The notes beneath the pieces were generated by a model, which ran no database searches, was not told the DNA's origin, and saw nothing but the letters and a program-made list of their open reading frames with translations. Positions 24,625 to 34,084 of a stretch of 34,084 bases of DNA are shown here, in pieces. The position numbers and the translations under genes are program-made. The stretch spans positions 1 to 34,084 of the IMG/VR virus record IMGVR_UViG_3300020207_001276. One strand, 5' to 3'. How positions within the stretch are numbered: the first letter of the stretch is position 1; each line of letters starts with the position of its first letter. This DNA is from a virus.

Positions 24625-25803
24625 ATGAGATTAGAACAAGATATTAAATTAGACTATAAGGATGTTCTTATTCGTCCTAAACGTTCAACACTTGGTAGTC
24701 GTAAAGAAGTAGACCTTAAACGTGGATACAACTGGCGAAACTGGCAACCTGAAGATATGAGCATGGAGCAAATACGTCCTGAGCAAAAACACTGGCGTGG
24801 TGTTCCTATTATGGCAAGTAATATGGACGGTGTTGGTACATTTGAAATGGCTGACAAACTTGCTGAAGCCGAAGTGTTTACTTGTCTTGTTAAAACATAT
24901 AGCGTAAACGAGCTTGTAAATTATTTTGACAGCGAATATCCTGAGCGTACAGAATATGTTGCAATGAGTATTGGAATTACAGAACGTGATCACGACAAGT
25001 TTCGTGCAGTATATGAACAAACAGGCGAAAAATTGCGTTATATTTGTATTGACGTAGCAAATGGTTATAGTGAACGTTTTGTAAAATTTGTAAAACAATT
25101 TAGAGAACTATATCCGCATATAGTCATCATAGCGGGTAATGTTGTAACCGGAGAGATGACAGAGGAGTTAATTCTAAATGGAGCAGACATTGTTAAAGTG
25201 GGCATCGGCCCTGGGAGCGTTTGCACAACTCGTATTCAAACTGGTGTTGGTTATCCTCAGCTTAGTGCTGTTATGGAGTGTGCTGACAGTGCTCATGGCC
25301 TTGGTGGACATATCATTGCTGATGGAGGATGTACTTCACCAGGTGATGTGGCTAAGGCATTTGCTGGAGGAGCCGACTTCGTCATGCTTGGAGGAATGCT
25401 TGCCGGGCACGATGAAGGGGGAGGTGATGTAATCACCAAATACTACAAAACAGGAGAGTGGGTTAAAGACGAACAAACTCTCGATGGTCGAACTGTAGAA
25501 ATTACCTGGAAAGACGGTATTGAAAGAAAAAAGTTTGTAACATTCTACGGAATGAGTTCGAAGGCCGCGAACGACAAACACTTTGGAGGCCTTAAGGAGT
25601 ATAGAAGCAGTGAAGGACGAGAAGTTCTTGTGCCTTACAGAGGAGCAGTGGGTAGTACTGTTCAAGATATTTTGGGTGGGTTGCGTTCTGCTTGTACTTA
25701 CGCAGGCGCAGTAAGATTAAAATATCTGTCAAAATGTACAACATTTGTTCGTTGTACGCAGACTCATAATTCTGTTTACGAAAACTCAACTATCGGTAAA
25801 TAA
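24625..25803 (+). CDS. guaC: GMP reductase
   Basis: 392 aa (E. coli GuaC is 347). The N-terminus [21 protein letters not shown] is diagnostic for GuaC rather than GuaB. The catalytic loop is [11 protein letters not shown] with Cys200, and [36 protein letters not shown] and [12 protein letters not shown] all match GuaC; there is no CBS insert. Extra residues at about 35-57 and 275-305 explain the length. It reduces GMP to IMP with NADPH, moving guanine nucleotides toward adenine, which suits an AT-rich genome. Base use at about 25110-25450 is more GC-rich than around it. Confidence 0.92.
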
Positions 25804-28060: not shown

Positions 28061-28372
28061 ATGAGTACAGATGTAATTGAAGAAGTAGTAATAGACGAAA
28101 AAATTGGGGAAGTAATCGATGTCCCTAAGAGATACAAAGTAGTTCTTATTAATGATGATCAAACTCCTATGGATTGGGTTATTGATGTTTTAGTATCTAT
28201 TTTTAAACATTCTGAAACAACTGCAAAAGAGCTTACACTAACCATTCATACCGAAGGCTCTGGCATTGCAGGCATATATACTTTTGAAATGGCGGAACAA
28301 AAAACTATTGAAGCAACAACAGCAAGTAGAGAAAGAGGTTTTCCGTTACAAATTAAAGTAGATGAAGAATGA
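28061..28372 (+). CDS. clpS: ClpS adaptor for ClpAP protease
   Basis: 103 aa. After an acidic flexible N-terminus, YKVVLINDDQTPMDWVIDVLVSIFKHS, then HTEGSGIAGIYTFEMAEQK and ERGFPLQIKV match ClpS from end to end. The N-degron pocket residues (NDD with TPM, His in TIHTEG) are present. It delivers proteins with destabilising N-termini to ClpAP; a phage copy could retarget host proteolysis. It overlaps ho1 by 4 bases. AAGGAG is the ribosome site. Confidence 0.93.
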   Translation: MSTDVIEEVVIDEKIGEVIDVPKRYKVVLINDDQTPMDWVIDVLVSIFKHSETTAKELTLTIHTEGSGIAGIYTFEMAEQKTIEATTASRERGFPLQIKVDEE

Positions 28373-28932
28373 GCAATTTAAAAGAATTAACTAAAGAACA
28401 GCATACCAATGCTGAAAGACAAGACTTTGTTAAAGTATTAATGAGTGGAAAAATTAATCCACAGTTTTATGCCACGTACCTATGGAACCAGCATAAAAAA
28501 TATGACTTACTTGAAGCAATGGCCGCAGTAAATGGAATTTGGTTAGATATTCCTTTTCCTATTCAACGTAAAATGGCAATTGAACAAGACTTTTTAGAAC
28601 TATGGGAAGATAAACAAAATCCTCCACCTATAGTTCAAAGCACACATGATTATATCGCACATCTAAAAGATATAATGCATGATAAAACTGCACTAATGGC
28701 ACATATCTATACATTGCATATGGGAGACCTAAGCGGTGGACAAATGATTTCTAAAAAGATTCCAGGTGAAGGTCGTATGTATCAATTTGAAGGCGACATC
28801 AAAGAAATCAAAGAAGCAATTAGAAGCAATACTTCAGATGATATGGCAGATGAAGCAAAATGGGTATTTGAATCAGCAACTGCTCTTTTTAAAGAGCTTA
28901 TGGAGTTAGACATTGAGCCTTATTTGGAATAA
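28369..28932 (+). CDS. ho1: Heme oxygenase
   Basis: 187 aa. LKELTKEQHTNAERQDF carries the heme-ligand His12, and HMGDLSGGQMISKK is the distal-helix signature. It cleaves heme to biliverdin, iron and CO using reduced ferredoxin or similar. The next gene, overlapping by 20 bases, is a bilin reductase that would use the biliverdin. Coupled ATGA to clpS. The cytoplasmic product would feed a bilin pathway and release iron. Confidence 0.95.
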   Translation: MSNLKELTKEQHTNAERQDFVKVLMSGKINPQFYATYLWNQHKKYDLLEAMAAVNGIWLDIPFPIQRKMAIEQDFLELWEDKQNPPPIVQSTHDYIAHLKDIMHDKTALMAHIYTLHMGDLSGGQMISKKIPGEGRMYQFEGDIKEIKEAIRSNTSDDMADEAKWVFESATALFKELMELDIEPYLE

Positions 28933-29605
28933 ACTAATTGAGTGTAAAGACGAAATCATCCAAGTATTCGACGAAAAAGCAACAGAAATTAAAGAAGACG
29001 GTTTGGATTATTTTAATCGCCCAGACGGTGGTTGGATCAATCGTGTTTGGGCTAATGATTCTATTAGACGGGCACATATAGATGTAGTTGACGCTCGTGA
29101 TACTAAAGGACTTTGGATGATGCACGTATGCATTTTCCCTACACTTGATAATCCAGCACCTATATACGGCTTTGATGTAATTGCTGGCAAAAACAAAATG
29201 ACAGGAGCATTCCACGACTTTAGTGCAAGTGCAGATCCAGACCATCCAATGATTGACGGGTACAGAGAAAGTGTTGCACACTTTGTTCCTGAGAAACAAC
29301 GTGAACTTCCTGAGTGGGCTCGCAATATCTTTACAGATAAAATGCTTGCCGCTGGTAACGTAAAGTCTGAAGAGGAAGCAACAGAAATTATTAGAATTGC
29401 TCTTAGTAATTTACGAGCATATTTTGATGAAGTAGGTTTATCAAAAGGTGAAGGCGACCAAACTCTCGTGGCAGCGGCACAAGATTACTATTGTCACAAT
29501 CAGCAACAAAATCCTCACACACCCAATGTAATGAAAAGTTTGGGACTACCAGAAGAAGATGTAGACAAATTCTGCACGGATATGTTGTTTCCTAAACTCG
29601 CATAA
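28913..29605 (+). CDS. pcyX: Ferredoxin-dependent bilin reductase (PcyX/PcyA-type)
   Basis: 230 aa; TTG start with GGAG seven bases upstream, inside ho1. The substrate-binding pattern matches PcyA: MMHVCIFP with His71 and GFDVIAG with Asp88, the same 17-residue spacing as His88 and Asp105 of PcyA. The PcyA Glu76 position appears as Asp57 (HID). End motifs LPEWARNIF, MLAAGNV and NPHTPNVM fit the family. It reduces biliverdin to a bilin using ferredoxin. PcyX, described from uncultured oceanic phages beside a heme oxygenase gene, makes phycoerythrobilin; the symbol is my inference. Confidence 0.88.
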   Translation: MSLIWNKLIECKDEIIQVFDEKATEIKEDGLDYFNRPDGGWINRVWANDSIRRAHIDVVDARDTKGLWMMHVCIFPTLDNPAPIYGFDVIAGKNKMTGAFHDFSASADPDHPMIDGYRESVAHFVPEKQRELPEWARNIFTDKMLAAGNVKSEEEATEIIRIALSNLRAYFDEVGLSKGEGDQTLVAAAQDYYCHNQQQNPHTPNVMKSLGLPEEDVDKFCTDMLFPKLA

Positions 29606-32116: not shown

Positions 32117-32124
32117 GATAAATA
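32117..32124 (+). promoter_or_regulatory. Late-type promoter box for the curli genes
   Basis: GATAAATA lies 18 bases before ATG 32143 with GGAGGG (32130-32135) as ribosome site. Just upstream, CCCATATA occurs twice (32079-32116 region), a possible binding repeat. Confidence 0.6.
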
Positions 32125-32142
32125 TAAGTGGAGGGTAGTCTT

Positions 32143-32595
32143 ATGAGGACAATAATAGCAACTTTAGTATTATTTTATGCAACAAGTGCAGTTGCGAGCG
32201 AGATGGTCTGGGGATTTAAAAATCCACGTTTTAGCGGACAAGGATATAGTTCGCATGTACTATCTACAGAGCAATTACAACACAATCGCAAAGAAGATAT
32301 TAAAGCAAAAGCAGAAGCTGAACAAAGACGTATCGAGCGTGAACTTGAAAACACAACCCTAAACAAATTCTTAAAGAACGTAGAATCACGTATCTACGCA
32401 CAAATTTCAAAGCAGATGGTAGACGCTATGTTTGCTGATTGTTCAGACTCTTGTGCTAATACAGGCACAGCAGAAATTGAAGGCTCAACTATTGTTTGGG
32501 TCAAAGCAGACGGTATGATCACTTTAACAGTTACACAAGATGATGGAACAGTTACTGAGATTAGCATACCGGCAGATGGAGATTTTAGTTTTTAA
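32143..32595 (+). CDS. csgF: Curli assembly protein CsgF
   Basis: 150 aa from ATG 32143; the upstream in-frame GTG at 32128 lies on the ribosome site, so it is rejected. Signal peptide MRTIIATLVLFYATSAVA. The mature N-terminus SEMVWGFKNPRFSGQGYSSHVL corresponds to the CsgF segment (FxNPxFGG) that plugs the CsgG pore. The middle is helical, and the end WVKADGMITLTVTQDDGTVTE matches the beta-rich CsgF tail. Secreted to the outer membrane to help nucleate curli. It overlaps csgG by one base. Confidence 0.9.
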   Translation: MRTIIATLVLFYATSAVASEMVWGFKNPRFSGQGYSSHVLSTEQLQHNRKEDIKAKAEAEQRRIERELENTTLNKFLKNVESRIYAQISKQMVDAMFADCSDSCANTGTAEIEGSTIVWVKADGMITLTVTQDDGTVTEISIPADGDFSF

Positions 32596-33470
32596 TGTTG
32601 CGTATGGGATCAGTACTACTAATTATTGCTTTTCTGACTGGATGTACAGCTATGAATAGTAGCTTACAAACACTCAAAGAGGCAGAGATCTCGCCTACGG
32701 TACAAGCATCGCCTATACAACAAAGATTAGAAGATGTTCCAGAATTAGATGGAGAAACAATTACAATCGCTGTTTATAGTTTTACAGATAAAACAGGACA
32801 GCGTAAACCCAGTGACATGGTTGCTAATCTAAGCAGTGCAGTCACACAAGGCTCAGAAGCCTGGGTTATCAAAGCCTTACAAGAGGTGGGCAACGGCAAA
32901 TGGTTTGAAGTTGTTGAACGTGTAGGTATGGACAATCTTATCAAAGAGCGTCAACTTATAAGACAGACACGTGAAAACTACGAAGGAGATAATGCTCCTA
33001 AACTAAAACCATTGTTGTTTGCAGGGCTCATTCTCGAAGGCGGCATTGTTGGATATGATAGCAATGTAGCAGTCGGAGGAGCAGGAGCCAGTTGGCTTGG
33101 CATTGGTGCAAGCACAGAATATAGAATCGACAACGTAACAGTGGTAATGCGTATCGTATCAGTTAGCACAGGGAAAGTGTTACTGAGTATAGCAACGGAG
33201 AAAACCATTGCAAGCCACAGGTCCGGAGCGGACGTTTTTAAGTTCCTTGATATGGGAACTCAACTGTTAGAAACTGAAACTGGTTTCTCAGTTAATGAGC
33301 CTGTCAACTATGCTGTGAGGGCGGCCGTTGAACAGGGAATCGTAGAATTAGTCTACGAAGGTCAACGAAAGGGACTTTGGAAGTTCCAGGAGGGTAAACA
33401 AAATGAAATTAAGAACGTTGATATTATTGTTGACGGCAACACTATTTCTAACTCCAGCTCTGGCGAATGA
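32595..33470 (+). CDS. csgG: Curli secretion channel CsgG
   Basis: 291 aa. Lipobox FLTGC (Cys17). Domain motifs: ITIAVYSFTDKTGQRKPSD, KWFEVVERVGMDNLIKERQLIR, LEGGIVGYDSNVAVGGAGASWLGIGAS and TEYRIDNVTVVMRIVSVSTGKVL all follow E. coli CsgG. CsgG is a nine-subunit outer-membrane channel that exports curlin. Full length. csgF comes before it and a curlin-like gene starts inside its end. Pelagimyophages are known to carry csgG and csgF; the role in infection is open. Confidence 0.94.
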   Translation: MLRMGSVLLIIAFLTGCTAMNSSLQTLKEAEISPTVQASPIQQRLEDVPELDGETITIAVYSFTDKTGQRKPSDMVANLSSAVTQGSEAWVIKALQEVGNGKWFEVVERVGMDNLIKERQLIRQTRENYEGDNAPKLKPLLFAGLILEGGIVGYDSNVAVGGAGASWLGIGASTEYRIDNVTVVMRIVSVSTGKVLLSIATEKTIASHRSGADVFKFLDMGTQLLETETGFSVNEPVNYAVRAAVEQGIVELVYEGQRKGLWKFQEGKQNEIKNVDIIVDGNTISNSSSGE

Positions 33471-34084
33471 TATCTATATAGAGCAAGTTGGTGACAGCTT
33501 AGATTTAGATATTACGCAAGACGGTGGAAGCAATGAGTTTGGTGATTCAACAACGGTAGTTTCACTAAACGGCGATTTAATGACGTTTAGTATAACACAA
33601 CAAGGCGATAGCAACGATATTGCCGCAGTTATAAATGGTGACAGTTACACAGGTACATGGGCATTCACAGGAGACTACAACACAGTAGATTTAAAATGTG
33701 ATAGCTTAGGTACAGCTGGTAGCGGAAACTGTGAAAGTGTAACACTTAATATAACAACCACAGGCGATGATAATGCTTATAAGTTTTATATCGGTGAAAA
33801 CACTGACGCAGGCGGCAGCACAGTTAACTTTACTATAACTGGTGACGATAACGTAGTAGACGCTGACATCGACGGTATTGATGCAACTATTGACGTAGAT
33901 GTAACTAATACATTGCCAACTAATACTACATCAATTACAAGTGCTAATGACGCAACTCTAAGCACTACTAATGGTGGTAACATCATTGATATTAATGTAG
34001 ACGGTGGAGCATCAGGTGCAGGTCACGTAATTGATTTAGATCTTGATGGCGCGGCTAACGTAGTTACAATAGATCAAAGTGGTA
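33403..34084 (+). CDS. Curlin-like secreted repeat protein (cut by window end)
   Basis: Start ATG 33403 with AGGAGGG upstream; it overlaps csgG by 68 bases in another frame and is open to the window end (227 codons). Signal peptide MKLRTLILLLTATLFLTPALA. The mature part is Asn/Gly/Asp/Thr-rich with repeats like ITQDGGSNEFG, ITQQGDSNDI and IDQSG, the Q-x-G-x-x-N core of curlin (CsgA/B) repeats. Two cysteines (KCDS and NCES) are unusual for curlin. It is the probable cargo of CsgG/CsgF. Whether it forms amyloid cannot be told. Confidence 0.8.
   Translation, partial: MKLRTLILLLTATLFLTPALANDIYIEQVGDSLDLDITQDGGSNEFGDSTTVVSLNGDLMTFSITQQGDSNDIAAVINGDSYTGTWAFTGDYNTVDLKCDSLGTAGSGNCESVTLNITTTGDDNAYKFYIGENTDAGGSTVNFTITGDDNVVDADIDGIDATIDVDVTNTLPTNTTSITSANDATLSTTNGGNIIDINVDGGASGAGHVIDLDLDGAANVVTIDQSG

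Follow-up and report, generated by a model that had tools for sequence, protein, structure and literature searches.

Curli modules in phages and their closest relatives

Genes of the curli (type VIII) secretion system have been described in several marine phages. In pelagimyophages, Zaragoza-Solas (2020) reported csgF, csgG and a curli-associated protein, and put forward 'sibling capture' (PMC7029224). The order csgF-csgG-csgA/B-FecR-csgA/B-adenylate cyclase was later described by Wittmers (2022) in SAR11 myo- and podophages, with metatranscript evidence for the set and with CsgE absent from it (PMC9599517), as it is from Alphaproteobacteria (PMC3521004). The same six genes are found in Pelagibacter phage HTVC008M (gp014-gp019: csgF, csgG, a curlin named 'curlin minor subunit CsgB', a FecR-like gene, a second curlin and a cyclase) and in Methylophilales phage Melnitz (gp99-gp104, with the curlin annotated). 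Melnitz infects OM43, so a SAR11 host is not essential to a module of the pelagiphage type. A curlin within phage curli operons, reported in 2022 and annotated in both of these records, means that our core finding belongs to a kind already described.

Two bacterial systems also invite comparison. The likeness to the E. coli csgBA/csgDEFG genes lies in CsgG (E 1e-50 to the solved E. coli CsgG structures in the PDB), in a Pfam match for CsgF and in curlin repeats. In contrast to E. coli, the phage set is a single operon with degenerate repeats and other pore constriction residues (KPSDMVANLSSAV in the phage, KPYPASNFSTAV in E. coli CsgG), and phages are reported to have no csgC, csgD or csgE. 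The Caulobacter-type holdfast anchor HfaA-HfaB-HfaD likewise pairs a CsgG-family pore with repeat cargo, but the pore described here scores as CsgG; it is a Brevundimonas jumbo phage that has the HfaB/HfaD type.

The window analyzed here is the whole of IMG/VR record IMGVR_UViG_3300020207_001276 (34,084 bases), and its last 2 kb carry the following features, all on the plus strand:

32117-32124, plus: T4/cyanophage-type late promoter element GATAAATA, 26 nt before the csgF ATG
32130-32135, plus: csgF ribosome-binding site, GGAGGG, identified from sequence
32143-32595, plus: csgF, secreted protein serving the CsgG pore as chaperone/anchor (Pfam CsgF 1e-15; PHROG 35372 5e-50)
32595-33470, plus: csgG, pore lipoprotein of the outer membrane for curli (type VIII) secretion (Pfam CsgG 3.9e-50)
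33388-33394, plus: curlin ribosome-binding site, AGGAGGG, inside csgG and eight bases 5' of the ATG at 33403, identified from sequence
33403-33470, plus: overlap of the csgG 3' end and the curlin 5' end, 68 nt
33403-34084, plus: curlin-like gene (csgA/B type), signal peptide followed by a beta-solenoid, open at the record end with about 23 aa missing

These genes form a tight operon of late type. The original prediction had placed csgF and csgG before a signal-peptide protein with curlin-like repeats that starts inside the end of csgG, and this is indeed the arrangement, the curlin ATG at 33403 lying 68 nt before the csgG stop; translational coupling through the overlap is likely. All three products have Sec signals by sequence. 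The csgF product, whose Pfam CsgF match exceeds the cut-off, combines its signal peptide with an FKNPRFSG motif close to the mature N-terminus, and the signal peptide of the curlin-like protein is MKLRTLILLLTATLFLTPALA (Sec type). CsgG has the lipobox LTGC and matches NCBIfam CsgG at 5.5e-55 (187 bits) as against 7.7e-10 (38 bits) for HfaB, which rules out an HfaB identity. The PHROG families matched by csgF and csgG have no known function, and the curlin has no match there. A gene for a small membrane protein, seen 5' of csgF in many other loci, was not found directly before csgF in the window.

Identity and conservation of the curlins

Curlins have been defined by the repeat X6QXGX2NX10 (PMC3521004), and at least two minimal repeats of this form are expected of a member. 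The window protein has exactly two strict copies, compared with 0.06 expected from shuffling, so the repeats noticed at the outset are not a product of chance. Taken alone, the protein reaches 15.9 bits against Pfam Curlin_rpt (PF07012), below the gathering cut-off of 20.7, and a strict Pfam call would therefore miss it; the repeats and profile comparisons nonetheless place it among the curlins. Pfam Curlin_rpt matches appear in 12 of 31 members of its family (E up to 0.01). When a profile of 31 homologues was aligned by hhalign with the clear second curlin of the same operons, the probability was 99.9% (E 2.7e-32), and the sole significant PDB match of this profile was 8c50, a 'Curlin associated repeat-containing protein' (1.4e-4, with a large composition bias).

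Completing the gene, as the original prediction had suggested, is impossible from its own record, since the gene runs past the end of the contig, but the nearest relative, locus L001, supplies a complete homologue of 250 aa that is 93% identical. AlphaFold predicts this homologue to be a confident beta-solenoid of repeated strand-turn-strand units (pLDDT 83, pTM 0.80), and the three viral models nearest to it in BFVD are all named 'Curlin associated' (best 7.6e-8, TM 0.70-0.72). A Foldseek search of the PDB with the model had no match at an E of 0.001 or better. VIA-align put generic two-sheet solenoids first, with SufB/SufD at Z 17; kinship to SufB/SufD was dismissed, the score being read as a shared two-sheet solenoid. 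All told, the single-sequence Pfam match of the window protein is below threshold and the family-level case is strong, and we regard the identity of the locus as a phage curli set with a curlin as close to certain.

The conservation of this arrangement points the same way. A scan of IMG/VR with CsgG yielded 55 csgG loci, and the same curlin directly follows csgG in every one of them (five of the curlins are cut by contig ends). The order csgF-csgG-curlin 1-FecR-curlin 2-CHASE2 cyclase is kept wherever a locus reaches that far. The window holds the first three genes, and two relatives collinear with it supply the rest of the gene order of Wittmers 2022, L001 as far as curlin 2 and L003 as far as the cyclase, so that in order the set agrees with the pelagiphage module (PMC9599517, PMC7029224). 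Against HTVC008M, the window CsgG is 51% identical and the curlin about 45% over its N-terminal half. The overlap of csgG and curlin recurs in L001-L004 (65-74 nt) and is small or missing in most other lineages. In L032-L034 and L037, csgF and csgG lie about 800 bp apart; in most others they touch or almost do.

Wherever dS was unsaturated, pairwise dN/dS of the mature curlin was 0.08-0.15, with similar values for csgF and csgG. By this measure the curlin is under purifying selection and is therefore very probably a working gene. The expectation that a phage curli set would bring its own curlin cargo has thus been borne out, and the set is real, conserved and, as far as its sequences tell, very probably functional. 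One might suspect a decaying, non-functional acquisition, given only two strict curlin repeats and a gene cut at the record end. This is highly improbable in light of the low dN/dS, the ribosome-binding sites, the conserved order in 55 loci and the published metatranscript evidence (PMC9599517); decay would also bring frequent stops or frameshifts in relatives, and none were seen.

Two other phage records carry a CsgG-type gene. In Brevundimonas phage Kabachok (L060, 3372-5977), an HfaB-type CsgG pore (6e-70) lies beside a repeat protein that resembles HfaD (1.3e-7); here a phage has independently captured an export pair of the holdfast-anchor type. The 'Salmonella phage S.Kent 1-2-1' entry (L059, OR851715.1) is an unverified 1.5 kb record whose CsgG looks like that of bacterial Salmonella/E. 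coli and is probably host DNA contamination.

The second curlin is longer than the first in most loci and more variable. Pfam Curlin_rpt matches 18 of 23 members (best 7.6e-23). A PA14 domain, which is common in adhesins, is present in two second curlins examined, those of HTVC008M and L016, and one of the 23 aligned second curlins has a PA14 match. In L057 (9585-10910) and L016 (8661-9953), an N-terminal PA14 is fused to curlin repeats in an adhesin-like design. In L002, L013 and L014 another secreted protein takes the place of curlin 2, and in a few loci none was detected. The proteins at L002 5612-7084 and L013 8965-10974, between FecR and the cyclase, are large, carry signal peptides and have no Pfam match; they are possibly alternative surface cargo.

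These differences bear on what the first curlin does. It is acidic (35 D/E against 2 K/R), its N- and C-termini are strongly conserved, and its number of strict repeats is nearly constant at 2-3, as against 0-7 in curlin 2; HTVC008M, moreover, annotates it as CsgB. It might on these grounds be a CsgB-like base or cap and no fibre subunit at all, anchoring curlin 2, or the replacement surface proteins of L002 and L013, at the CsgG/F pore. That said, CsgA and CsgB are indistinguishable by sequence outside Gammaproteobacteria (PMC3521004), and we rate this possibility as somewhat short of even.

Between the two curlins lies the 'FecR'-domain gene (L001 7521-8657, with homologues in 27 loci), which is called a regulator in the literature. 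The aligned members begin with a Sec-type signal and end, like the curlins, in a C-terminus of the I-x-I-x-Q type, and the predicted model has a confident C-terminal beta domain. The N-terminal domain resembles PupR (Z 15.8) and PDB 5ix9 (Z 6.8, 26% identity), the cell-surface-anchoring domain of an antifreeze adhesin, which is also its top sequence match, at an E of 0.01. A comparison of the 'FecR' tail with the curlin repeats by hhalign gave E 0.0045 but a probability of just 8%, and a true curlin repeat there is left as a suggestion. The operon 'FecR' looks like a secreted protein and not a classical regulator, with a structural or anchoring role a fair alternative.

Probable late expression and the possible role of the set

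The motif NATAAATA, which T4-like marine phages use as a late promoter, occurs 5' of csgF in 12 of 26 non-redundant loci, compared with 47 of 272 (17%) starts of other ORFs (Fisher p 0.0013); for random windows the share is 5.5%. The window itself has one site on the minus strand and nine on the plus strand. None of these nine falls within a gene longer than 120 aa, and eight of them lie shortly 5' of a listed ORF. A similar usage is found in the Melnitz paper, where TATAAAT serves as the late promoter (PMC9004378). The NATAAATA promoter 5' of csgF therefore makes late expression of the csg operon likely.

The overall explanation that we consider probable is that the phage encodes a type VIII secretion module together with the cargo for it, expressed late from a coupled operon and producing a surface fibre for adhesion. 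Late in infection, to judge by the promoter, the host would make CsgF, CsgG and curlin from this operon. By homology, CsgG would form an outer-membrane pore through which unfolded curlin passes, and CsgF at the mouth of the pore would hold the product at the cell surface. The curlin would then fold outside as a beta-solenoid and build a curli-like fibre together with curlin 2, whose gene lies further downstream in relatives. Within such a fibre the degenerate, acidic curlin 1 with its near-constant repeat number could be a CsgB-like nucleator or base, and the longer, more variable curlin 2 the main fibre or its tip. Fibres of this kind might keep neighboring cells or particles near the lysing cell, as in 'sibling capture'.

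The idea of an exported fibre, already part of the original prediction, is plausible from the sequences, and on the present analysis we hold real export of a fibre by the set to be likely. Several points count against the explanation as a whole: phage sets are reported to lack CsgE (PMC9599517), the pore constriction is altered, and curlin 1 has only two strict repeats; to these may be added the composition bias of the 8c50 match, the lack of a Foldseek PDB match with E <0.001 and the presence of PA14 in just one of 23 aligned second curlins. Adhesion appears to be the most likely benefit because expression looks late and PA14 is present on the second curlins of HTVC008M and L016. That it is the main benefit we advance tentatively, for the authors of the Melnitz study saw no clumping in their cultures (PMC9004378), which disfavors adhesion at least under those conditions.

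An exported curlin could instead coat the infected cell and block superinfection by other phages, as proposed in PMC9599517, and curli-containing biofilms have been argued to limit phage penetration. The promoter, however, looks late. Superinfection exclusion is usually needed early, and the domain of adhesive type carried by two second curlins is more in keeping with binding than with shielding, leaving this benefit unlikely.

A third proposal, made for Melnitz (PMC9004378), is that the CsgG/CsgF pore is the business end of the set, a gated pore in the outer membrane that would time lysis or serve uptake, with curlin absent or secondary. Late expression, as suggested by the promoter, would suit such a role, and the altered constriction residues together with the reported absence of CsgE could make for a leaky pore; the lack of clumping in Melnitz cultures is in keeping with it too. 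The lysis-pore model was built on the statement that csgA/B are missing. This premise is contradicted by the phage's own GenBank record (L058 7866-8585 and 9635-10660), which annotates two curlin-repeat proteins around FecR and beside csgG. Because the cargo is present in all 55 loci, and is under purifying selection, the main argument for a lysis role of the pore alone falls away, and we judge such a role quite improbable. The role of the curlin cargo is now directly testable in the cultured phages Melnitz and HTVC008M.

A probable SUP05-type host

Where the window differs from the pelagiphage module, apart from the 68-nt overlap and the small membrane-protein gene not found before csgF, is in a host marker at its opposite end:

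3-440, plus: C-terminal fragment of dsrA, outside the curli set and cut by the record start (NCBIfam dsrA 5e-36)

The gene codes for a reverse dissimilatory sulfite reductase of SUP05 type. The fragment is 81% identical to dsrA of SUP05 phage Lau218 and 78-87% identical to that of Thioglobaceae-type genomes, and in a tree it groups with Thioglobaceae/SUP05 (100/100). Collinearity of the window with the csg-bearing contig G001 extends over 1750-34083, and that with the dsrA phage contig G118 over 3-23416 (dsrA 97% identical); this double collinearity rules out a chimeric contig as the source of the gene. An iscU gene at 1131-1508 lies downstream of the fragment, as in other dsrA phage contigs.

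On account of the SUP05-type dsrA and the collinearity with another dsrA phage contig, the host is probably a member of the Thioglobaceae (a sulfur-oxidizing, SUP05-type gammaproteobacterium) rather than SAR11, and the pelagimyophage setting implied by the original prediction is probably wrong for this contig. No dsrA was found in 36 records of other csg phages, but G001 and G003 end just before that position, so that its absence from such phages does not follow; nor was csgG found in 15 other dsrA contigs, mostly short fragments. The window has no tRNA to serve as a host clue. Searches with the phage curlin profile and phage CsgG, which had no built-in positive control, found neither in 83 genomes of the family of a Candidatus Thioglobus genome; with a broader Pfam CsgG model, which did detect its positive controls, 2 of 15 genomes had distant members.

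Among the papers searched, none names SUP05, phage and curli together. The probable SUP05-type host group seems to be the main new point on phage curli sets. If this host is correct, three unrelated groups of streamlined marine bacteria (SAR11, OM43 and SUP05-type sulfur oxidizers) have phages that bring one and the same fibre secretion machine into hosts seemingly without one, which would point to a common gain in dilute seawater, for example new hosts held near the lysing cell. A fuller version, in which the set has spread to SUP05-type phages as a late fibre machine of three secreted proteins with curlin-like C-termini (a constant curlin base, a curlin 2 with an exchangeable front domain, and 'FecR' as a periplasmic or surface anchor and no regulator), is speculative and on balance rather doubtful.

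The window also carries other genes upstream of the csg operon. A phage GMP reductase is encoded at 24625-25803 (NCBIfam 5.6e-155), and at 28369-29605 a heme oxygenase is followed by a PcyA/PcyX-like bilin reductase, the hemO-pcyX cassette of marine phages, which here adjoins genes for GroEL, Hsp20 and ClpS.
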